Assembly (NCBI GenBank): GCA_029552745.1 | Contig: JAKPDK010000134.1 | Span: 1 to 64,000, forward strand | Source of the DNA: Candidatus Hydrogenedentota bacterium | Lineage (GTDB): Bacteria > Hydrogenedentota > Hydrogenedentia > Hydrogenedentales > SLHB01 | Length of the DNA: 64,000 nt | Direction: 5' to 3' | Shown: in pieces, positions 24,773 to 35,407 of the stretch | Position numbering within the stretch: the first letter of the stretch is position 1 | Layout of the letters: each line of letters begins with the position of its first letter | Program-made: the position numbers and the translations under genes | The notes under the pieces: generated by a model | Databases searched by the model: none | What the model saw: the letters and a program-made list of their open reading frames with translations, nothing else | Told to the model about the DNA's origin: nothing

Positions 24773-24860
24773 AGAATTATCCTAGCAGCGTCGTAAGGGT
24801 TGCCTTTTTGGGGCGAGGGCTATAGAATTATCGCAGGAAGAGACGACGCGGGAGGCAACA

Positions 24861-26537
24861 GTGGAGCGAGGATTCGTCGTTATAGGAGAGGGTGAAGATC
24901 GGAAACGTATTCCGGTCATTTCGTCCTTGCTGATCGGTCGGTCGGTTGATTGTGACATTTCCATCGATGACGCGGCGGCATCTCGGCATCACGTGGAGAT
25001 TTTTGTCAAAGAGGGGAAGTTTTGTTGGCGGGACTTGGGAAGTACCAACGGGACGCTGATCAACGGCAATTTGATGACGGAGGGGGTGCTTCAAGATGGT
25101 GACCGTATTCAGATAGGGGAAACCTGTCTGCGTTTCGAGGCAGAGTCGGTGCCTGAAGCGCCCGATGGAGAGGACTCCACCTTATTTGCCACCTTACTCG
25201 ATGGTCAAGGTAAAGTACTGGCGCGTTCCCCCGAAGATGCCAAATCCGAACAGCTTCTTCGCGCGGTGTACACCATCATGAATCAGATCGCCTCCAACTA
25301 TGATCCCTGCAGTCTTGTGGATCAGGTGTTGGAGACTTCCATGAAAGCCATTGCGGCGCAACGGGCAGCGGTTCTTTTTGCGGATCCGTCAACGGACGAG
25401 CTACTGCCATGTCCGGTATGTCATTCGTTTCATATTATTCAGGATGGGCGATTACGTAAAGTGGATCGTGGCGGGGTCCGCGTGAGTAGCACGGTGGCGC
25501 ACCGCGTTCTTGCGATGGGGGAGAGTGTGCTTTATCAGGATACGCAAAGTGCTGGGGACATTAGCAGCGCCCAAAGCGTTGTGTCGATGCATGTACGTTC
25601 GATCATGTGTGTGCCGCTGCGTGCCAAGCAGAAAATCCTTGGGTTGTTGTACGTGGATACCGATAAACCGGGGCACTCGTATACCCGTCAGGACATGTTG
25701 TTAACGACGGCGGTGGGGAACAGTGCAGGTCTTGCACTCGAAAATGCCCGGATGCACCTTCAAGTCATCGAAAAGGAGCGCACGGATCAAGAGATTCAAC
25801 ACGCCTGGTCGATACAGGAAGGGTTTTTGGTGCATGAATGGCCTCAGGATGACTCGCGGTATCGTGTGTATGGCGAGACAAAACCTGCGAAAGTGGTGGG
25901 TGGTGATTTTTACGATTTTGTCCAGCCGGATAAAGACCGCGTGGGAGTGCTGATAGGGGATGTCAGCGGCAAAGGAGTTCCTGCGGCGTTGACGATGGCG
26001 CAGCTGCTCGCTACATTTCGTTTATGTGTGCTCCGTGAGACATCGCCGGCAGCGGTGTTATCCCTTTTGAACACGAGTCTCTATAAGCGTAGTCGGTTTG
26101 GCATGTTTTGTACAGTTTGTTTTGCCGTGCTCGATTTGAAGACGGGCGCAGTGGTCTGCGCTAATGCGGGACACCATCCACCGTTGCGGGTGGGTAAAGG
26201 AGGGGCGGAGCTTTTGGCAGAAGCCAGCGGCCCTCCGATTGGGGTTCTTCCGGATGCGTCTTGGACGGATTCCCAGCTAACCCTTACCCCGGGAGATACG
26301 CTATTGCTTTATACAGATGGAGTTGTGGAGGCTCGAGGCATGCACACGCGACGGGGCACCTCCAGTGTGGCGGCGGATGAGTTTGGGGTACGCAACTTGA
26401 GCCGTGTAGCCCAGATCTTTTGGAAGGAATCCCCGAAGGAAATGATTTCTGGTGTAAACCAGAGTGTCCGTGAGTTCACGGCACCCGCGCTTCCCCATGA
26501 CGACTGTACCATGATCGCCGTGCGGTATGACGGATAA
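24861..26537 (+). CDS. FHA-GAF-PP2C (RsbU/SpoIIE-type) serine phosphatase
   Basis: 558 residues, GTG start with GGGAGG upstream. An FHA domain (about residues 22-92: LIGRSVDCDI, then ASRHHVEIF, GSTNGTLING) binds phosphothreonine peptides. A GAF domain (about 135-300) has the VPLRAKQKILGLLYVDT core. A PP2C-type SpoIIE phosphatase domain (about 345-556) has VVGGDFYDF, GDVSGKGVPAAL, LLYTDGVVEAR and HDDCTMIAV, with the metal-binding Asp residues intact. The family dephosphorylates STAS anti-anti-sigma proteins. Overlapping by 11 bases with a downstream anti-sigma kinase, and followed by a STAS gene, it forms a complete partner-switch module. The input (FHA, GAF) suggests response to an upstream Ser/Thr kinase and a small ligand. 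Confidence 0.95.
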   Translation: MERGFVVIGEGEDRKRIPVISSLLIGRSVDCDISIDDAAASRHHVEIFVKEGKFCWRDLGSTNGTLINGNLMTEGVLQDGDRIQIGETCLRFEAESVPEAPDGEDSTLFATLLDGQGKVLARSPEDAKSEQLLRAVYTIMNQIASNYDPCSLVDQVLETSMKAIAAQRAAVLFADPSTDELLPCPVCHSFHIIQDGRLRKVDRGGVRVSSTVAHRVLAMGESVLYQDTQSAGDISSAQSVVSMHVRSIMCVPLRAKQKILGLLYVDTDKPGHSYTRQDMLLTTAVGNSAGLALENARMHLQVIEKERTDQEIQHAWSIQEGFLVHEWPQDDSRYRVYGETKPAKVVGGDFYDFVQPDKDRVGVLIGDVSGKGVPAALTMAQLLATFRLCVLRETSPAAVLSLLNTSLYKRSRFGMFCTVCFAVLDLKTGAVVCANAGHHPPLRVGKGGAELLAEASGPPIGVLPDASWTDSQLTLTPGDTLLLYTDGVVEARGMHTRRGTSSVAADEFGVRNLSRVAQIFWKESPKEMISGVNQSVREFTAPALPHDDCTMIAVRYDG

Positions 26538-27030
26538 ACGTACAGGTATGACTAGCCGCGAAAAGATGGCGGAAGATATTCGACTGCGGATGGCATCTGA
26601 TGCGCGGCTTCTTTGCGCCGTTCGGGGTTTGGTGCGAGGATATTTTGGGAGTTTGGGATTTTCGGGAGACAAAGTCGAGTCAGTCATTTTGGCTATTGAC
26701 GAGGCGTGCGCCAATTCGATTCGTCACGCGTATCAACGGCGGTCGACGGGAATCATCGAGCTTGCGTTTCGCGCAGATGGCGACTTTGTAGAAGTGGTTG
26801 TTCGGGACTTCGGGAGGCCCGCGCGCCCTGCTGATGTTGCGGCGAGGCATGCAGAGTCGTTTTCGCGGGATTCTTTGCCTCGAGGAGGATTTGGTGTGCA
26901 GTTTATGAGGGAAGTATTCGACTCCGTCGAGTTTTCGCGCGGGAAACGGCGCGGCAACCAGGTGCAGATGCGTCTGAAAAGGCCTGCGACGGCGATCCCT
27001 TGTCCGGAAACCTACGACGGAAAGGTATAG
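26527..27030 (+). CDS. Anti-sigma-factor-type serine kinase (RsbW/SpoIIAB family)
   Basis: 167 residues; start 26527 overlaps the phosphatase gene. HATPase_c_2 fold with N-box LAIDEACANSIRHAY, G1 box VVRDFGRP and G2 box RGGFGVQFMREVFD. The protein would bind ATP and phosphorylate the Ser of a STAS partner, and in other systems also sequesters a sigma factor. No sigma factor gene occurs within this window, so the final target is unknown. The STAS partner is eight bases downstream. The C-terminal 25 residues after the fold are basic and unusual but short. Confidence 0.93.
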   Translation: MTDKRTGMTSREKMAEDIRLRMASDARLLCAVRGLVRGYFGSLGFSGDKVESVILAIDEACANSIRHAYQRRSTGIIELAFRADGDFVEVVVRDFGRPARPADVAARHAESFSRDSLPRGGFGVQFMREVFDSVEFSRGKRRGNQVQMRLKRPATAIPCPETYDGKV

Positions 27031-27037
27031 GGAGTTT

Positions 27038-27376
27038 ATGAAATCCATGACATTGCAGCTCGACACCGTGGATATCGGCAAGAACTGTCTCGTAAAAGTG
27101 GCGGGTGAAGTGGATTTATATAGTTCTCCGGAATTACGCACCGCTATCAACAAAGCCTTTGCCCGCGCCTCTTCTCTCGTGGCTGTGGACTTGCGTGACG
27201 TGGCGTACATGGATAGTTCGGGGGTGGCGACCTTAATTGAAGGACTCCGCAGTGGCATGCAGCAGCAGAAGACGTTTATCCTTGTGGCGCCCAGCAATCC
27301 CGTGATGAAAGTATTGCGGCTCTCGCGTCTCGACACCGTTTTCGAAATTCGTGACAATATGGAGGAGGAAACCTAG
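27038..27376 (+). CDS. STAS-domain anti-anti-sigma / MlaB-like protein
   Basis: 112 residues, one STAS domain: LVKVAGEVDLYSSPELR, then VAVDLRDVAYMDSSGVATLIEG. The DSSG motif contains the Ser that RsbW-type kinases phosphorylate. Position makes it ambiguous. It is the third gene of a phosphatase-kinase-STAS triad (RsbV-like), yet also sits just upstream of mlaE, where E. coli has the STAS protein MlaB, a cofactor of the MlaFE transporter. It may serve either or both. Eight bases separate it from the kinase gene and 41 from mlaE. Confidence 0.93.
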   Translation: MKSMTLQLDTVDIGKNCLVKVAGEVDLYSSPELRTAINKAFARASSLVAVDLRDVAYMDSSGVATLIEGLRSGMQQQKTFILVAPSNPVMKVLRLSRLDTVFEIRDNMEEET

Positions 27377-27417
27377 CCGACGAAATCCGCCGCGTTTCGG
27401 CTCAGGCAATCCCATGC

Positions 27418-28215
27418 ATGTCTATCGTGATTCACATAGTAGGGGCGCTGGGCAGGACAACGCTCAACGTGTTTCATTCGGTGCTGCGTGTTTGCCTACT
27501 GATTGTGGAGACCCTGCGATGGACATTTATCCAGCCCTTTCGGGGGAAGGGCCTGCGGTTCCGTAGCGCCGTACATCATTTCGTGGAATTTGGGGTCAAT
27601 TCTCTACCCATCGTGAGCCTCATTTGTTTCTTGATTGGTGCCATCATGGCGATGCAAGCGGCAAATCAATTACGCCGGTTTGGGGCGATGCAATACATCG
27701 CCCATTTGGTGGGCGTCGCCGCGATGCGCGAATTAGCTCCTTTGATGACCGCCATCCTCTTGACGGGCCGTAGCGGTTCGGCGATTACAGCGGAAATTGG
27801 AGCAATGCGCGTAGCAGAAGAAATCGATGCACTAGAAGTCATGGGGGTAAACCCGACTAAATTCCTTGTTGTGCCCAAGTTTTTAGGCATGCTCTTTGCC
27901 TTGCCTTGTCTGACAATTGTTGCCGTTTTTATCATGATTAGCGGGGGGTTTGCACTTTCGGTGTTGGGGTTGGGGTTAGAGCCGATTCAGTATCTCACGA
28001 ACACGGTGGATGCCATTCAGATGAAAGACTTTGCTACGGGCATGACCAAGAGTGTGTTTTTTGCTGTGGTCATCTGTTGGGTGGGCGTATATCGCGGGTT
28101 TCAAGTAGAAGGCGGCGCAGAAGGGGTGGGGCGAATGACCACCTCGTCTGTGGTCACATCCATCTTCTTCATCATCATTGTGGACCTCATTTTTACAGCG
28201 TTGTTTTTCTCATGA
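27418..28215 (+). CDS. mlaE: MlaE-type lipid ABC transporter permease
   Basis: 265 residues, about five to six transmembrane segments. The permease signature is complete (RELAPLMTAILLTGRSGSAITAEIGAMRV..EIDALEVMGVNP), as in MlaE/YrbE/TGD1. In E. coli MlaE carries phospholipid across the inner membrane together with MlaF (ATPase), MlaD (MCE ring) and MlaB (STAS), maintaining outer-membrane lipid asymmetry. The stop overlaps the mlaF start by four bases. Ribosome site upstream is weak. Confidence 0.95.
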   Translation: MSIVIHIVGALGRTTLNVFHSVLRVCLLIVETLRWTFIQPFRGKGLRFRSAVHHFVEFGVNSLPIVSLICFLIGAIMAMQAANQLRRFGAMQYIAHLVGVAAMRELAPLMTAILLTGRSGSAITAEIGAMRVAEEIDALEVMGVNPTKFLVVPKFLGMLFALPCLTIVAVFIMISGGFALSVLGLGLEPIQYLTNTVDAIQMKDFATGMTKSVFFAVVICWVGVYRGFQVEGGAEGVGRMTTSSVVTSIFFIIIVDLIFTALFFS

Positions 28216-29015
28216 CTACGGAGGTATCGACAGAATACATCATCGAGGTAAAAGACCTTGTGGTAAAGTACGGCGATCGGGTCGTGCTCGATGGGCTGAA
28301 TTTCCGTATTCGTCGGGGCGAAGTATTTGTTATTCTTGGAGGAAGCGGTTGTGGGAAAAGCACGCTATTGCGGACGTTGGTTGGGCTTCAAAGACCTTCT
28401 GCCGGTCAGATTCTTTTTCGGGGGGCAGACATTGCTCAGATGAATGACGATGAGTTAGTGGAAGTGCGGAAACGCATGGGCATGTGTTTTCAGGGCTCTG
28501 CGTTGTTTAATTCGATGACCGTTGCAGACAACGTTGCCCTGCCTTTACGGGAACATACGCGTCTGGAAGAATCCACGATTGAAATTATGACGAAGATAAA
28601 ATTGGAATTAGTGGGGCTGGGGGGTTGTGGGCATCTTTTGCCGTCAGAGCTGAGCGGGGGGATGCGTAAACGGGCAGGTTTGGCGCGGGCGATGGCGATG
28701 GACCCGGAAATCATTTTCTATGACGAGCCTTCTGCGGGTCTCGATCCTATCGTTGCTGCGGGGTTGGATAATCTCATCCGTAAATTGCAGAGCACCTTCA
28801 ATCTGACGAGTGTGGTTGTGACCCATGAAATGGCAAGTGTCGAAGTGATTGCGGATACCTTGTGCCTATTAAAAGGAGGAAGGATCATCGCCATGGGCAC
28901 GCTTGACGAAGTACGTGCCAACGACCATCCTTTTGTGAGACAGTTTTTTGAGCGGCAACCGGATGATGACGTGCAGGAAAATCCCGATTATATTCGTTCC
29001 TTGACGCAGGCGTGA
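28212..29015 (+). CDS. mlaF: MlaF-type lipid ABC transporter ATPase
   Basis: 268 residues, start at 28212 (ATGA with mlaE stop). Walker A GGSGCGKST (about residue 38), Q-loop FQGSALF, signature LSGGMRKRAGLARAMA, Walker B IIFYDEPSAG and switch His VVTHEM are all intact. The family energises lipid transport by MlaE/MlaD. It is followed by a 22-base gap to the MCE gene. Confidence 0.96.
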   Translation: MTTEVSTEYIIEVKDLVVKYGDRVVLDGLNFRIRRGEVFVILGGSGCGKSTLLRTLVGLQRPSAGQILFRGADIAQMNDDELVEVRKRMGMCFQGSALFNSMTVADNVALPLREHTRLEESTIEIMTKIKLELVGLGGCGHLLPSELSGGMRKRAGLARAMAMDPEIIFYDEPSAGLDPIVAAGLDNLIRKLQSTFNLTSVVVTHEMASVEVIADTLCLLKGGRIIAMGTLDEVRANDHPFVRQFFERQPDDDVQENPDYIRSLTQA

Positions 29016-29037
29016 GTTACGGTAAGGGAGTGCCCTT

Positions 29038-30063
29038 ATGGCGGATGACAGAAATCGTTATACGAGTGCAGAGATCAAGGCAGGGCTCCTCGTACTCACG
29101 AGTATGATTCTCTTTCTTCTGTTTTTTGCGGCGATACGAGGGATACATCCGACCCAACCACGTGCGGTATATCATGCTTATTTCACCGACATAGGCGGCC
29201 TTAATTTAGGCGCGCCGGTGCGTTTTGGCGGCTATAAGGTTGGGCGTGTGAACGCTATCGCTATTGATAAGGAACAACCGTCTCGAATCCGCGTGGACTT
29301 TGAACTTCCGCCTGATGTGCCGGTGAATGACGCGAGCCGCGCGTTTGTGGGACAGGTCTCATTAACTTCGGAGAAACATCTTGAAATTACGACGGGAGAT
29401 GTCGATGCCCCGAAGGTCTCCCCTGGTTCTGAGATTCCTACCCAACGTAAAGATCTTTTTGGCTTGGCGGGCGAAGTTGGGGGCAAAGTAGGCGATGTGC
29501 TCGACCGGGTCAAAGAACTACTGGAAAAGGAAGGCAAGGACCGTGAAACAGAAAAACCCGTAACGGTTCCGGGGGTATTGGAAAACATCGACGGCGCTGT
29601 TTCTGATTTGCGGGATGTGATGCAGGAAAACCGTGGAGATATCAAAGAGGTCCTGGCACGCCTGCCCGAGATCGAGGACACAGCCAAAAAACTCATTCAA
29701 CAGTTGCAAGACGTCGTTCATGAAAACCGAGAAGATCTTCGTGCCACGGTGTCTGACGCTCGGGCAACGGCTGCCTCGGCTCGGGAGGCGATGACAAAAA
29801 TCGAAGGTATTGCCGGCGATGCCGCTAAGGTCGCGGCACGCCTTGAGGGAATGGCGGATGATTTGCAGACGATTCTTACGAATGCTTCCGAGGCGAGTGC
29901 GGACATGCGCGACATACTTCAAGAAAACAAGCCGCGGATTGAGGACATCATCGCCGAGTTGCGGGAGGCAGCCCGTTATGCGCGCGGGTTTGCACATGAG
30001 ATTATGGAACAGCCCCAGTCCCTCATTCGCGGGGTGAAACCCCAAGGGCGGGAGAGCCGGTAG
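29038..30063 (+). CDS. mlaD: MlaD-type MCE-domain protein with long coiled coil
   Basis: 341 residues: an N-terminal transmembrane helix (about residues 17-38), an MCE domain (about 45-125, with YFTDIGGLNLGAPVRFGGYKVGRV) and about 200 residues of predicted helix, with repeated D.Rxxxx.NR heptads and a short C-terminal tail. MCE proteins form hexameric rings that pass lipids between membranes. E. coli MlaD has only a short tail, so the long helical part may form a tunnel or needle, as in PqiB/LetB or Mce1. Ribosome site GGGAG just upstream. Confidence 0.93.
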   Translation: MADDRNRYTSAEIKAGLLVLTSMILFLLFFAAIRGIHPTQPRAVYHAYFTDIGGLNLGAPVRFGGYKVGRVNAIAIDKEQPSRIRVDFELPPDVPVNDASRAFVGQVSLTSEKHLEITTGDVDAPKVSPGSEIPTQRKDLFGLAGEVGGKVGDVLDRVKELLEKEGKDRETEKPVTVPGVLENIDGAVSDLRDVMQENRGDIKEVLARLPEIEDTAKKLIQQLQDVVHENREDLRATVSDARATAASAREAMTKIEGIAGDAAKVAARLEGMADDLQTILTNASEASADMRDILQENKPRIEDIIAELREAARYARGFAHEIMEQPQSLIRGVKPQGRESR

Positions 30064-30072
30064 GAGGGAGAA

Positions 30073-30627
30073 ATGACGGCGAAGAGGCTTGTGTTGCTGG
30101 TGATGTTTGCTTCAGGTTGTGCCACAACTTCAAAACCGATTCACTATTACACGCTCGATATGACTCCCTCCGGTAAAGCGCTGTGTTCGCGAGGTATAGT
30201 CATAGAAATATTTCGTTCAGCCGAGCCCCTGTTGCGACGTAACATCATGATTAAGGCGACACCGACTCAGGTGGAGTACTACGCCGCGGACGAATGGGTG
30301 GCTAGCGTGGATGAGTTGGTCACGCAAAAACTGAGGGCTGAATTGGGTGAGAACAACCCCCAACGCCGCGAGGCAGTTCTTTCGGGTACTGTACTCGCTT
30401 TTGAGCAACAAGACACAACCAATGGGGCGCGGGCTTATGCAAAAGTTCATGTAACCGTGCGGAAATGGCAAGATGCGCGCGAGAAGGAATGGTTGTTAGA
30501 AAAAACCTATGATGCCGCCGTGGATATGAAGGCGCCGAAGCCTGGCGCTGCGGCAGAGGCTTTGTCCAGGGCATTGGAACAGATCGCCGCACAGATTGCC
30601 GCAGATATTCAAAATCTCCCCTTGTAA
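30073..30627 (+). CDS. ABC-transport auxiliary lipoprotein (PqiC/LinL-like)
   Basis: 184 residues with a lipobox (MFASGC) at residue 16 and the ABC_trans_aux fold (PIHYYTLDMTPSGK; LLRRNIMIKATPTQVEYYAADEWV; Ser-Val-Asp-Glu-Leu-Val near 75). PqiC- and LinL-type lipoproteins sit in the outer membrane as the end station of MCE transport. Nine bases after mlaD and ending the operon. Confidence 0.85.
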   Translation: MTAKRLVLLVMFASGCATTSKPIHYYTLDMTPSGKALCSRGIVIEIFRSAEPLLRRNIMIKATPTQVEYYAADEWVASVDELVTQKLRAELGENNPQRREAVLSGTVLAFEQQDTTNGARAYAKVHVTVRKWQDAREKEWLLEKTYDAAVDMKAPKPGAAAEALSRALEQIAAQIAADIQNLPL

Positions 30628-31548: not shown

Positions 31549-33081
31549 TTAGTCCGATGTCTCGTGAATTGTCCGATGGAGTTCGTGGAGAAGAGGTTTC
31601 AATAGGGGCCAAATCTGACGATATTGGTCGTATCGTGTACGGTAAAACTCCACAAGAGATGGGTTTGGTTCGAAGGGGTGTCCTTTCCGCGTCATTGCCC
31701 GTGAACCGTCGGGGGCAGAAACGAAAATGCCCGTCGCGGAGCCCGCTAGAATCGCGCTGCCGAGCGCACCCGCCTCGGGTACTTCCATCCGAACCAAGGG
31801 ACAATTCAAAATGTCTGCAGCTATCTGCAACCACGCGTCGGATTTACTTCCTCCTCCGACGGCGCGTAATTCATGGATTTGAATGCCTGCTGCCGCGGCG
31901 GCATCGACGCATTCGCGCAGATAGAAAACGACGCCTTCCATGATGCCACGCATGATGTCGCCGCGTGGAGTTTCGAGTTTAAGCCCCAAGATGACGCCAC
32001 TGGAATCAGCCACAAACTCCGGGGGACCTGTCGGTGCGAAGTGAGGCAGCACCAACACCGATGAAGGCTGCGAAGAAACTTCGCGCATAAGCAGGTCGTA
32101 CACATTGACACCCGTTTGCGACGCTAGGCTCTGGGCATCGTGAGCGAAGGTTTCACGAAACCATTTGAGAAGGCTTCCGCCGTGATTGTAGAGAAACGAG
32201 ACAAAGCAGTTTGGTGCAGCATGATGTTCGGTGTTCAGCCCATAAGGGAGCATCTTTGCTGGCTCCGGTCGGGAGTGATAAACCGGGGCGATGCAAAAGT
32301 AGGTACCCATGCCAAACATGGCGCTGCCTTCTTCTACAACGCCGCACCCCAGAGCATTGGCGCACTGGTCGTGTGCCCCGGAAACGACGGCCACCGGTTT
32401 GTTACCCAACCCGAGTTCAGCAGCAATTTTTGGTGACACTTCCCCGATTAAGGTACCAGACGGTACGGTAGGTGGGAGCTTTTCGACATCAAGACCCGCG
32501 ATATCAAACAATTCGTTCGACCAAGTTTTCTGTTCTAAATCAAACAACAAAGTGCGGTTGGCGAGGGAGTAATCCACGACAGGGTCAGCCCCGAGCATGA
32601 AACTGACAAAACCCGCCCAGTGGAGGAATTTATAGGTGCGCTCATATAAGTCCGGCTGATGGTCCCGAAGCCAAAGGAGTTTCGTCAACGTGTAATGGTT
32701 CCCAGGGGTATTTCCATTAATGCGGTAAAGTCTGTCCGGCGGGCAGACACGGGTGAACTGCGGCACGTACTCCGCGCCGCGTTCATCAAAGTTCAGAATG
32801 GAATTACCCAAAATGGCGCGGTCCTGCGAAACGGGTACAACGGCTTCTCCGAGAGACGACACGGCCAGCGCAGACACCGGGTCGTGGACGCATGCCGCTG
32901 CCGTACTTTGGATTACCTCTTTAACGTTCTCCCACACCTCTTGGGCGTTGAGCTCCGCTTCTCCAGGCTTTTTCCGCACAATGTCGTATTCTCGGTACGC
33001 GGATGCAAGGAGGCGTCCATCTTCACGAAAAGCGCACGCCTTGCAACCAGTTGTGCCAACATCAACACCCAGAAGACTCAT
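31549..33081 (-). CDS. FGGY-family carbohydrate kinase (xylulokinase/fuculokinase-like)
   Basis: 510 residues. FGGY_N begins with SLLGVDVGTTGCKACAF, and FGGY_C contains VVSGAHDQCANALGCG, HFAPTG and AVGGGSKSDAWLQIAADI. The catalytic base lies in GAHDQ. Third gene of an isomerase-aldolase-kinase operon; ATG 33081 overlaps the aldolase stop (ATGA). Would phosphorylate the ketose made by the isomerase before aldol cleavage. FGGY specificity cannot be read by eye; L-fuculose, D-xylulose or related ketoses are all possible. Confidence 0.9.
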   Translation of the reverse strand: MSLLGVDVGTTGCKACAFREDGRLLASAYREYDIVRKKPGEAELNAQEVWENVKEVIQSTAAACVHDPVSALAVSSLGEAVVPVSQDRAILGNSILNFDERGAEYVPQFTRVCPPDRLYRINGNTPGNHYTLTKLLWLRDHQPDLYERTYKFLHWAGFVSFMLGADPVVDYSLANRTLLFDLEQKTWSNELFDIAGLDVEKLPPTVPSGTLIGEVSPKIAAELGLGNKPVAVVSGAHDQCANALGCGVVEEGSAMFGMGTYFCIAPVYHSRPEPAKMLPYGLNTEHHAAPNCFVSFLYNHGGSLLKWFRETFAHDAQSLASQTGVNVYDLLMREVSSQPSSVLVLPHFAPTGPPEFVADSSGVILGLKLETPRGDIMRGIMEGVVFYLRECVDAAAAAGIQIHELRAVGGGSKSDAWLQIAADILNCPLVRMEVPEAGALGSAILAGSATGIFVSAPDGSRAMTRKGHPFEPNPSLVEFYRTRYDQYRQIWPLLKPLLHELHRTIHETSD

Positions 33082-33992
33082 GACTCCACCACATCCAATG
33101 CACTGCGGGTTCCTGAGAGTTCAAAGTATTCGCGTAACATCCACAACGTGCGCTCATAAACAGCATCTTGCGCCGCGTTCAGGTCACCCGTTTGGCGCAA
33201 GGCATTTTCGTAGACCTGACGAATTTCGGTTCCGATGTTGATCTTGGCGATGCCGTTCCGGATGGCTTCTCGTACATAGGTCCGGTCAATCCCTGAACCT
33301 CCGTGTAGCACCAAGGGAACCCCCGTGGCATCGCGAAGCCTTCGTAGGTGATCGATATTGATTTTGGCAGTCACTTTGGGTTTATCGCGCAAGGCGCCCG
33401 ACACTGCCCCGTGGATATTGCCCACTGCCACAGAAAGCCAATCACACGCGGTTTCTTTCACAAACCGAGCGGCTTCCTCCACGTCGGTGAAGCCTTTTCC
33501 TGTTGCAAAAAGCTCTTCGTATGGCGGGGGCGGGCCGGCTTCATGGCCAAAAACGGCCCCCAATTCAGCCTCACAGGGTACGCCAGCTTGGTGCGCCATC
33601 TCCGCAATCTGCGCCGTGGCTTGAATGTTTTCTTCGAGCGGTAATCGGGAACCATCTACCATAACAGAATGGTAGCCAAGTTGCAGCGCCTCCGAGATAT
33701 CCCGGACATAATCCACTCGTTGCCCGTCTTCATCGATAACAGGAACATGGTCAAGATGTAAGCGGACATACCTGGTGTTCTCGTATTTCTTGTACGTTTC
33801 AAACACGGCTTTTGCGCTCTTGGCGTCGAACTTGTACCACTCCAGCCGTGCCGTCGCTACAAAGGCAAAACAGTCCGCATCGCAAACAGCCCTGATGATA
33901 GGTTCTATCATCGGTAGATAGGGCACATTGAATGCGGGAACGACGAGACCCGCCCGCCAAGCGTTTCTCACGATAACCCCACTGTTGATCAT
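33078..33992 (-). CDS. Class II fructose/tagatose-bisphosphate-type aldolase
   Basis: 304 residues. Zinc-dependent class II aldolase fold: HLDHVPVID with the catalytic Asp and first zinc His, GSRLPLEENI, EAELGAVFGHEAG, AVGNIHGAV and VLHGGSGI with the further zinc His residues. Closest in outline to KbaY/GatY/FbaA (F_bP_aldolase). It cleaves a ketose bisphosphate or ketose-1-phosphate to DHAP and an aldehyde. The gene lies between isomerase and kinase, overlapping both by four bases, so all three proteins are made in coordinated amounts. Confidence 0.92.
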   Translation of the reverse strand: MINSGVIVRNAWRAGLVVPAFNVPYLPMIEPIIRAVCDADCFAFVATARLEWYKFDAKSAKAVFETYKKYENTRYVRLHLDHVPVIDEDGQRVDYVRDISEALQLGYHSVMVDGSRLPLEENIQATAQIAEMAHQAGVPCEAELGAVFGHEAGPPPPYEELFATGKGFTDVEEAARFVKETACDWLSVAVGNIHGAVSGALRDKPKVTAKINIDHLRRLRDATGVPLVLHGGSGIDRTYVREAIRNGIAKINIGTEIRQVYENALRQTGDLNAAQDAVYERTLWMLREYFELSGTRSALDVVES

Positions 33993-35407
33993 GCATGCAC
34001 CTCCTGTGGAACAGCCACCTCGAAACCGAGGTATGTGCTGAGTGCTTCTTGTAGTGGGGCGACGACTTTTCCGAAGGCAGCGCTCACATGATGGCGGTAG
34101 CCGTTACGTCCGACATGCAGGAGTACGTCTTGCAACCGAGGAATCTGGGCTACGCCCGCACATCCAAAAAAGTCTGCCGGTATGGGGTCCGTTGTGAATT
34201 CCCCTTCTCCGAGATAAAAACGCAGACGCCCTTCAGCGGTCATCATACTAGCGAATGTAAATGCGCCCGGTGCAATTCGTCCCACATTGCAACCGTAACT
34301 GTGCCCTTCGCCGACGGCATTGGCAAGAATGGCATGATCCACGATCTTGCCGGGTTCTTTCATCAAGGATTTGGGCACAGGGCCACAGTGGAAAAGAATG
34401 CATTTATCATCTTCGTCACCGTAGTTGTTATTCCAATCGAGGCACATAGACGGCGAGTAGGTAGCAAGCCGCAAGGCGTGCATGCTGACGGCATTGCCCA
34501 CGTCCACTTCGCAGGCAGCTGCCATGCCGCGATCGTTGAGTTCACCTAACAACACACACGGAGAGATGCCCAGATGTTTTTGCATTTCTATCCAACAACG
34601 TAGGGCAAGCGCATCCAGTTGGAACTCTTCGATAATCTGGTCAATCACGACACCCAACCGCACTAATTTATCTTTCGCATCGCTGGGCACATCCTCCCAG
34701 GATCCGCAGGCATCCAGTGATTGGAGTTTCGCGCGGTACGCCTCATCCTGTTTCACATTCGTCATGCGGGCAAATACGTCACTCAGATCGATCGTTTCCA
34801 TGGTAATACCGTGGCGCTGGAGAGCAAGTTCATCGATACGCACGGTCTTGAAGGCGGTTGTTCGCGCCCCTATGGCACCCACTGTCATACGGCGCAAGCC
34901 GTTTACCACACGGCAAACGGCGTCGAAAAAGCGGATGTTTTCCCGGAAGCGTTCGCTGGCTGGCGCTACGGTGTGGGGCTTTAGTGCTGTGTAGCGGATG
35001 CCGTTTTGATAGAACACGTCCATGATCGAGAATTTGCCGCAAAACGAATCCCGGCGAAGTGCCGGCGCCATTTTATTGAGATCGTCAGGGTACGCTTGAA
35101 TGAAGATAGGCACATCCGCATCTCGCAAAGCAGCAACTGCTCCGTTTTCGTCCCCAAAGTTGGGGAGAGACAAGATGATCCCTCCGTATTTCCCGCGATT
35201 GCGGCGCAAAAACTCAGCAAATTTTCTCCCCTCTTCGGGGGTTTCGATAGCGCCGTTTCGAGTGGCATCACGCTCCATCAAAATGCATTCATGGCCCAGT
35301 TCCTTGAGGATTCGCGGGATCTCTTCACGTGCTTCATCCATGAGACTCGCAGGGAAGAAGCCCCTGTTTGCCAAGCATAACGCAAAAACCGTCTTTTCTT
35401 GTTTCAT
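33989..35407 (-). CDS. L-fucose/L-arabinose isomerase-family protein
   Basis: 472 residues with a good AAAGGGG ribosome site. Shape and motifs follow the FucI/AraA C-terminal-domain superfamily: an N-terminal Rossmann-like half (IILSLPNFGDENG, then TVGAIGARTTAFKTVRID) and a metal-site half with the CWIEMQ.HLGISPC and ACEVDVGNAVSMHAL sequence. In this family the Glu and Asp of such segments bind Mn. Shorter than E. coli FucI (about 590 residues), so it belongs to one of the uncharacterised branches. First gene of the isomerase-aldolase-kinase operon. The sugar is unknown; the whole set could process fucose, a related deoxyhexose or a sulfo-sugar. Confidence 0.88.
   Translation of the reverse strand: MKQEKTVFALCLANRGFFPASLMDEAREEIPRILKELGHECILMERDATRNGAIETPEEGRKFAEFLRRNRGKYGGIILSLPNFGDENGAVAALRDADVPIFIQAYPDDLNKMAPALRRDSFCGKFSIMDVFYQNGIRYTALKPHTVAPASERFRENIRFFDAVCRVVNGLRRMTVGAIGARTTAFKTVRIDELALQRHGITMETIDLSDVFARMTNVKQDEAYRAKLQSLDACGSWEDVPSDAKDKLVRLGVVIDQIIEEFQLDALALRCWIEMQKHLGISPCVLLGELNDRGMAAACEVDVGNAVSMHALRLATYSPSMCLDWNNNYGDEDDKCILFHCGPVPKSLMKEPGKIVDHAILANAVGEGHSYGCNVGRIAPGAFTFASMMTAEGRLRFYLGEGEFTTDPIPADFFGCAGVAQIPRLQDVLLHVGRNGYRHHVSAAFGKVVAPLQEALSTYLGFEVAVPQEVHA

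Follow-up and report, generated by a model that had tools for sequence, protein, structure and literature searches.

Why should the genes for a serine phosphatase, a serine kinase and a STAS protein, all of the partner-switch type, run directly into those of an Mla-type lipid transporter? The question is raised by a cluster of seven tightly packed open reading frames (ORFs) at positions 24861-30627 (+ strand; G000:C120) of a stretch of DNA from a Candidatus Hydrogenedentota bacterium (contig JAKPDK010000134.1), the whole of which, 64,000 nucleotides, is referred to here as the window. The answer favoured here, to which a probability of about 0.75 is given on the basis of sequence comparison, is that the unphosphorylated STAS protein would serve as an MlaB subunit licensing the ATPase MlaF, that the kinase would remove and phosphorylate it, switching the transporter off, and that the phosphatase would restore it, switching the transporter on.

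All seven ORFs were confirmed at their coordinates, and their products exceed the Pfam cut-offs for SpoIIE-PP2C/FHA/GAF, HATPase_c_2, STAS, MlaE, ABC_tran, MlaD and ABC_trans_aux, respectively. The features of the region are as follows:

24861..26537, + strand: FHA-GAF-PP2C (SpoIIE/RsbU-type) serine phosphatase, 558 residues, GTG start (Pfam, motifs)
26527..27030, + strand: RsbW/SpoIIAB-type serine kinase, HATPase_c_2 (Pfam, motif residues)
27038..27376, + strand: single-domain STAS protein, 112 residues, proposed phosphorylatable MlaB (Pfam, TIGR00377)
27215..27217, + strand: codon for Ser60 of STAS, the predicted phosphoacceptor, which aligns with Thr52 of E. coli MlaB (alignment)
27418..28215, + strand: MlaE permease (Pfam; TIGR00056 above cut-off)
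28212..29015, + strand: MlaF ATPase (Pfam ABC_tran)
28584..28601, + strand: MlaF I125-K130, the helical-subdomain patch equivalent to E. coli MlaF 123-128 (alignment)
28950..29012, + strand: C-terminal extension of MlaF; its Y260 and L264 align with Y261 and L265 of the E. coli handshake helix (alignment)
29038..30063, + strand: MlaD/MCE protein, 341 residues, with a long C-terminal region (Pfam)
30073..30627, + strand: ABC_trans_aux (PqiC-like) auxiliary lipoprotein (Pfam)
24800..24828, + strand: TTGCCT-17-TAGAAT, a weak match to a sigma-70-like promoter, in the intergenic stretch 5' of the phosphatase gene (suggestive)

The close packing described in the first-pass annotation of this DNA, with overlaps or gaps of less than 50 bases, was found throughout. 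The phosphatase and kinase genes overlap by 11 bases (or are separated by 10 if the kinase starts at the alternative ATG at 26548), mlaE and mlaF overlap in ATGA, and the gaps measure 7 bases between kinase and STAS, 41, the largest, between STAS and mlaE, 22 between mlaF and mlaD and 9 between mlaD and the lipoprotein gene. In the phosphatase, both the FHA motifs (GRS...SRHH...NG) and those of PP2C (GGDFYDF, GDVSGKG, YTDGV, DDCT) are legible. A scan of the region for promoters and terminators gave no signal above shuffled sequences, and the promoter match listed above is treated as suggestive because such matches are no commoner than in the shuffles.

Conservation of the gene order

In a sample of 68 genomes of Candidatus Hydrogenedentota, MlaE is present in 64 and is of two main kinds. 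The kind found in the window stands in the cassette described here, which occurs in 37 of the 68 genomes, among them the close relative Candidatus Hydrogenedentota Zod_Metabat.968 (L003, a contig identical to L086), while the other kind is of about 370 residues and carries a STAS domain fused at its N terminus. Wherever the contig is long enough, the order phosphatase-kinase-STAS-MlaE-MlaF-MlaD-lipoprotein is kept within the phylum; in G066 the cassette is divided between two contigs. The flanking genes, which in the window are pgsA, alr and yacP upstream and an SDR gene downstream, are not conserved with the cassette. The lipoprotein gene itself varies in G047 and G048 (L072:10576-12675; L080), where one ORF of about 700 residues encodes three tandem ABC_trans_aux domains.

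Outside the phylum, a profile of the cassette kinase was run against 242 genomes sampled across the bacterial domain, and many of its best matches adjoin mlaE, nine cassettes having been read among them. The phylum of G155 yielded six further cassettes, and a sample centred on G205 another sixteen. The row kinase-STAS-MlaE thus occurs in 31 outside genomes of 15 families, with the phosphatase adjacent in most, and the cassette is found in at least three phyla in all: the host phylum and two different further ones, represented by G091/G238 and by G155. In six genomes (G107, G383, G096, G337, G436 and G304) phosphatase and kinase are fused as one ORF; at L118, L251 and L268-L271, in genomes of four families, a single GAF-PP2C/RsbW polypeptide is encoded upstream of STAS-mlaE. 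At 80 other mlaE loci outside the phylum, no STAS gene adjoins mlaE, even when a broad STAS profile with E. coli MlaB among its members is used to look for one. The order of the cassette genes is therefore conserved far beyond chance, and conservation among relatives, which had been put forward as a check on the initial proposal, speaks in its favour, with 37 loci in the phylum and the core of the order, RsbW-STAS-MlaE-MlaF, in 31 genomes beyond it.

The trees point in the same direction. A single branch of the MlaE tree (SH-like approximate likelihood ratio test, SH-aLRT, 99) parts cassette MlaE together with the fused kind from bare MlaE, and a single branch of the RsbW tree (99.9) parts cassette RsbW from nine other RsbW proteins. 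As a single clade for cassette STAS is not rejected either, the cassette, judged by these trees, behaves as one co-inherited module.

The candidate phospho-site and the predicted MlaF docking surface

The STAS protein, which scores above the TIGR00377 cut-off, contains the segment YMDSSGVATL, invariant across the 37 in-phylum cassettes. Its Ser60, aligned to Thr52 of E. coli MlaB, is Ser in all 46 cassettes compared. The second Ser of the DSSG motif was also considered as phospho-site and was dropped, Thr52 being aligned with the first. The cassette kinase scores below the RsbW equivalog cut-offs; its E59, N63, D94, G96, G121 and G123 are invariant in 21 cassette kinases, with the Glu/Asn of the N-box and the G-box intact.

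The E. coli structures provide the reference for the other partner. There, MlaB docks on the helical subdomain of one MlaF and also contacts the C-terminal extension of the second, whose residues Y261, L265 and L266 occupy a groove (PMC7367683); Y261 and M127 of MlaF contact L55, L59 and L90 of MlaB, and MlaB T52 contacts MlaF K128 (PMC7784689). Thr52 forms the centre of the MlaF-MlaB interface, its replacement in T52E weakening the binding of MlaF and that in T52A abolishing ATPase activity (PMC7367683, PMC5016091).

With the E. coli proteins defining the tail and the column positions, 44 cassette MlaF were compared with 74 from bare loci, with P-values that ignore shared ancestry and are to be taken as descriptive. 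A tail of at least 20 residues past the anchor was found in 44/44 cassette proteins versus 9/74 bare ones, and a Y/F-x3-[LIVM] helix within it in 39 versus 3; in the six genomes where the two kinds of MlaF occur together, only the cassette protein bears the long tail. Moreover, an unbiased scan of all MlaF columns ranked position 123 (E. coli numbering, as for the positions that follow) as the most cassette-specific: Ile is present there in 100% of the in-phylum cassettes, 100% of the outside cassettes and 0% of bare MlaF (Ile in 44/44; any hydrophobic residue in 3/74 bare). Positions 124, 127, 261 and 265 also rank among the leading columns, position 127 being hydrophobic in 44/44 cassettes versus 5/74 bare proteins, which mostly have Glu. 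Lys128 is retained in all cassettes. In 21 cassettes collected later, Ile123, a hydrophobic 127 and Lys128 are each present in 21/21, and the tail is long in the six in which MlaF is complete.

On the STAS side, the positions matching MlaB L55, L59 and L90 are V/I/L, V/I and L. Cassette MlaF thus bears the MlaB-binding features known from E. coli, and their occurrence is tied to that of STAS, and we infer from this coupling that the two proteins bind each other. The first-pass annotation had suggested that the STAS protein could be both MlaB and RsbV, and the contact residues, the tail and the conserved linkage all lend support to that suggestion.

The proposed switch and its competitors

In the proposed mechanism, STAS would be at once an RsbV-like kinase substrate and an MlaB-like ATPase subunit. 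When unphosphorylated, it would dock on the helical subdomain of one MlaF and the C-terminal extension of its neighbour; the MlaF dimer could then assemble on MlaE and hydrolyse ATP, so that transport would be on. The RsbW-type kinase would compete with MlaF for one and the same helical face of STAS, phosphorylating Ser60, and phospho-STAS would leave MlaF because Ser60 lies at the centre of the interface; transport would then be off. Finally, the phosphatase, presumably signalled through its FHA (phosphothreonine) and GAF (small ligand) domains, would dephosphorylate STAS and so restore transport. What the switch acts on would accordingly be a transporter ATPase and not a sigma factor. As to the passage of lipid to the outer membrane, a bridging MCE assembly is probably used, since neither MlaC nor MlaA was found in the genome, MlaD is long and the lipoprotein is PqiC-like.

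Several observations weigh against this mechanism. The STAS protein is nearer to RsbV-type antagonists (TM1442, E=5.5e-23) than to MlaB (chains with E of about 0.08-0.9). Phosphatase, kinase and STAS are retained in G067, where mlaE is cut short and neither mlaF nor mlaD is left, a state that could reflect either recent loss or a second function. G363 has STAS-mlaE-mlaF with the same contact residues in MlaF and no adjacent kinase; G282 has a similar STAS and kinase with a CHASE2-PP2C protein and no mlaE; and some cassettes outside the phylum have no phosphatase gene next to them. Partner switches, besides, can target sigma factors of other types than SigB/F/G. As for the decaying G067 cassette itself (L124:1508-4365), the three partner-switch ORFs are open and mlaE is represented by its N-terminal part only, with a frameshift. 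In G018 and G020 the phosphatase-kinase pair stands alone in the available sequence, which in G018 stops at a contig edge.

One rival explanation is an ordinary partner switch whose target, a sigma factor or some different regulator, is not linked to the cassette, with the Mla genes just co-transcribed and transport co-regulated with that response. The resemblance of the three proteins to RsbW, RsbV and RsbU and their persistence in G067 would be expected from it, and the genome offers 13 genes with a sigma-70_r2 domain (RpoD, one RpoS-like, one FliA/WhiG and ten ECF-like). None of them, however, reaches the TIGR02980 cut-off for a SigB/F/G-type factor, the best score being 133 of 234 bits, in RpoD, so that the absence of a local sigma factor noted at first extends to this type genome-wide. 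The linkage across phyla with its single-branch split, and the confinement of the MlaB-site residues and the C-terminal extension to MlaF proteins whose loci contain a STAS gene, also speak against this explanation, which is considered unlikely. In another explanation STAS would be a constitutive MlaB and the transporter a sensor, the assembly of Mla being reported to some other client of the kinase with little control of transport. Competition of MlaF and kinase for one face of STAS, as may be deduced from the MlaB structure (PMC7367683) and from what is known of SpoIIAA-SpoIIAB, would suit such a sensor; the cassettes, nevertheless, have no conserved extra client gene next to them, and the E. 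coli changes at Thr52 strongly alter ATPase activity or MlaF binding, so that little likelihood is granted to it. The direction of the switch might also be the opposite one, with phospho-Ser60 engaging MlaF Lys130 (K128 in E. coli, contacted by T52), a residue conserved in all cassettes examined, and the kinase turning transport on; as T52E lowers MlaF association in E. coli and phosphorylation of SpoIIAA disrupts partner binding, this is held to be very improbable.

A wider extension of the proposed switch is speculative and is advanced with considerable doubt: partner switching could have evolved, over several phyla, into a general means of gating an ATP-binding cassette (ABC) transporter, in which a STAS subunit able to come off the transporter is phosphorylated on Ser and dephosphorylated again. 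The coupling would work in both directions, in that MlaF engaged in transport would withdraw STAS from the kinase, which would also report envelope lipid flux to an unlinked client.

The genome contains other STAS proteins. A separate mlaB elsewhere had been named as an observation that would count against the dual role of STAS: no free-standing mlaB was seen in the genome, but a second transporter with a fused STAS domain does exist. This system (G000:C31; L060:8829-9941) comprises a 371-residue MlaE with an N-terminal STAS domain, whose phospho-site reads MDTRG, and after it an MlaF, an MlaD and a lipoprotein belonging to this system; no kinase was seen beside it. Among 24 fused STAS domains the phospho-site is Ser in 14, Ala in 6 and Thr in 4; since 14/24 retain Ser, their use as a clean non-phosphorylatable contrast holds only partly. 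A second RsbW-like kinase and STAS pair (LSSA) lies behind a 632-residue protein without a Pfam match (G000:C37; L061:7213-8089), with no sigma gene or transporter in the surrounding stretch examined, and an orphan STAS gene with TYMG, lacking Ser at the phospho-site, lies between mraZ-like and mraW/rsmH-like genes (G000:C102; L062:8337-8681). Downstream of the cassette, a convergent operon at 31549-35407 (- strand) of the window encodes an FGGY-type kinase, a class II aldolase and a protein like fucose isomerase, whose sequences suggest a role in sugar catabolism.

Relation to known systems

Phosphorylation of MlaB was already proposed in 2016 and 2020, the kinase not being known (PMC5016091, PMC7367683), and the same papers treat as open, for E. 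coli, both the regulation of MlaB activity and the question of its phosphorylation. The first-pass annotation knew of no described system of this kind; this stands as regards a kinase-linked Mla system, since in the open-access literature, to which the search was confined to the exclusion of subscription papers, no paper joining MlaE with RsbW or MlaB with a partner switch was found, but not as regards MlaB phosphorylation as such. A Leptospira transcriptome paper containing both MCE and STAS terms proved unrelated. With a dedicated kinase and phosphatase beside an MlaB-like subunit, conserved over several phyla, the cassette makes MlaB phosphorylation testable. If the proposed switch is real, it would, to our knowledge, be without precedent among partner switches in having a transporter ATPase as its identified target; partner switching would then reach beyond transcription and act directly on a membrane transporter, and envelope lipid traffic could be switched fast, without new protein synthesis.

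With E. coli MlaFEDB (mlaFEDCB) the cassette shares the MlaE, MlaF and MlaD families, a STAS protein, in the cassette the predicted partner of MlaF, with Ser/Thr at the centre of the known or putative interface, and the handshake tail of MlaF with Y and L at matching aligned positions. The cassette MlaF, MlaE and MlaD are assigned at family level, lying below the E. coli-type equivalog cut-offs. The STAS gene had been said to occupy the E. coli mlaB position, which is incorrect: in mlaFEDCB, mlaB comes last, whereas here the STAS gene lies 5' of mlaE and encodes an RsbV-like protein with an invariant Ser. The cassette differs, furthermore, in including a kinase, a phosphatase and a PqiC-like lipoprotein and in the lack of the E. 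coli partners MlaC and MlaA. The STAS-MlaE fusions, noted before (PMC5016091) and forming the second system of the phylum, likewise join an MlaB-like STAS to a lipid ABC transporter, but have a variable phospho-site and no MlaF handshake tail in the four MlaF examined.

Similarly, the RsbU-RsbW-RsbV and SpoIIE-SpoIIAB-SpoIIAA systems of Bacillus combine a PP2C phosphatase, a HATPase serine kinase and a STAS protein with a phosphorylatable Ser; in contrast to them, the cassette is without a cognate SigB/F/G-type sigma factor, and the switch is proposed to act on the ATPase MlaF. Sigma-independent outputs are represented by SypE/SypA of Vibrio fischeri and HmpU/W/V of Nostoc, in which the unphosphorylated STAS protein is proposed as the active output, acting on something other than a sigma factor (PMC8256260); unlike these, the cassette operon itself encodes the candidate target, with a matching predicted binding site.

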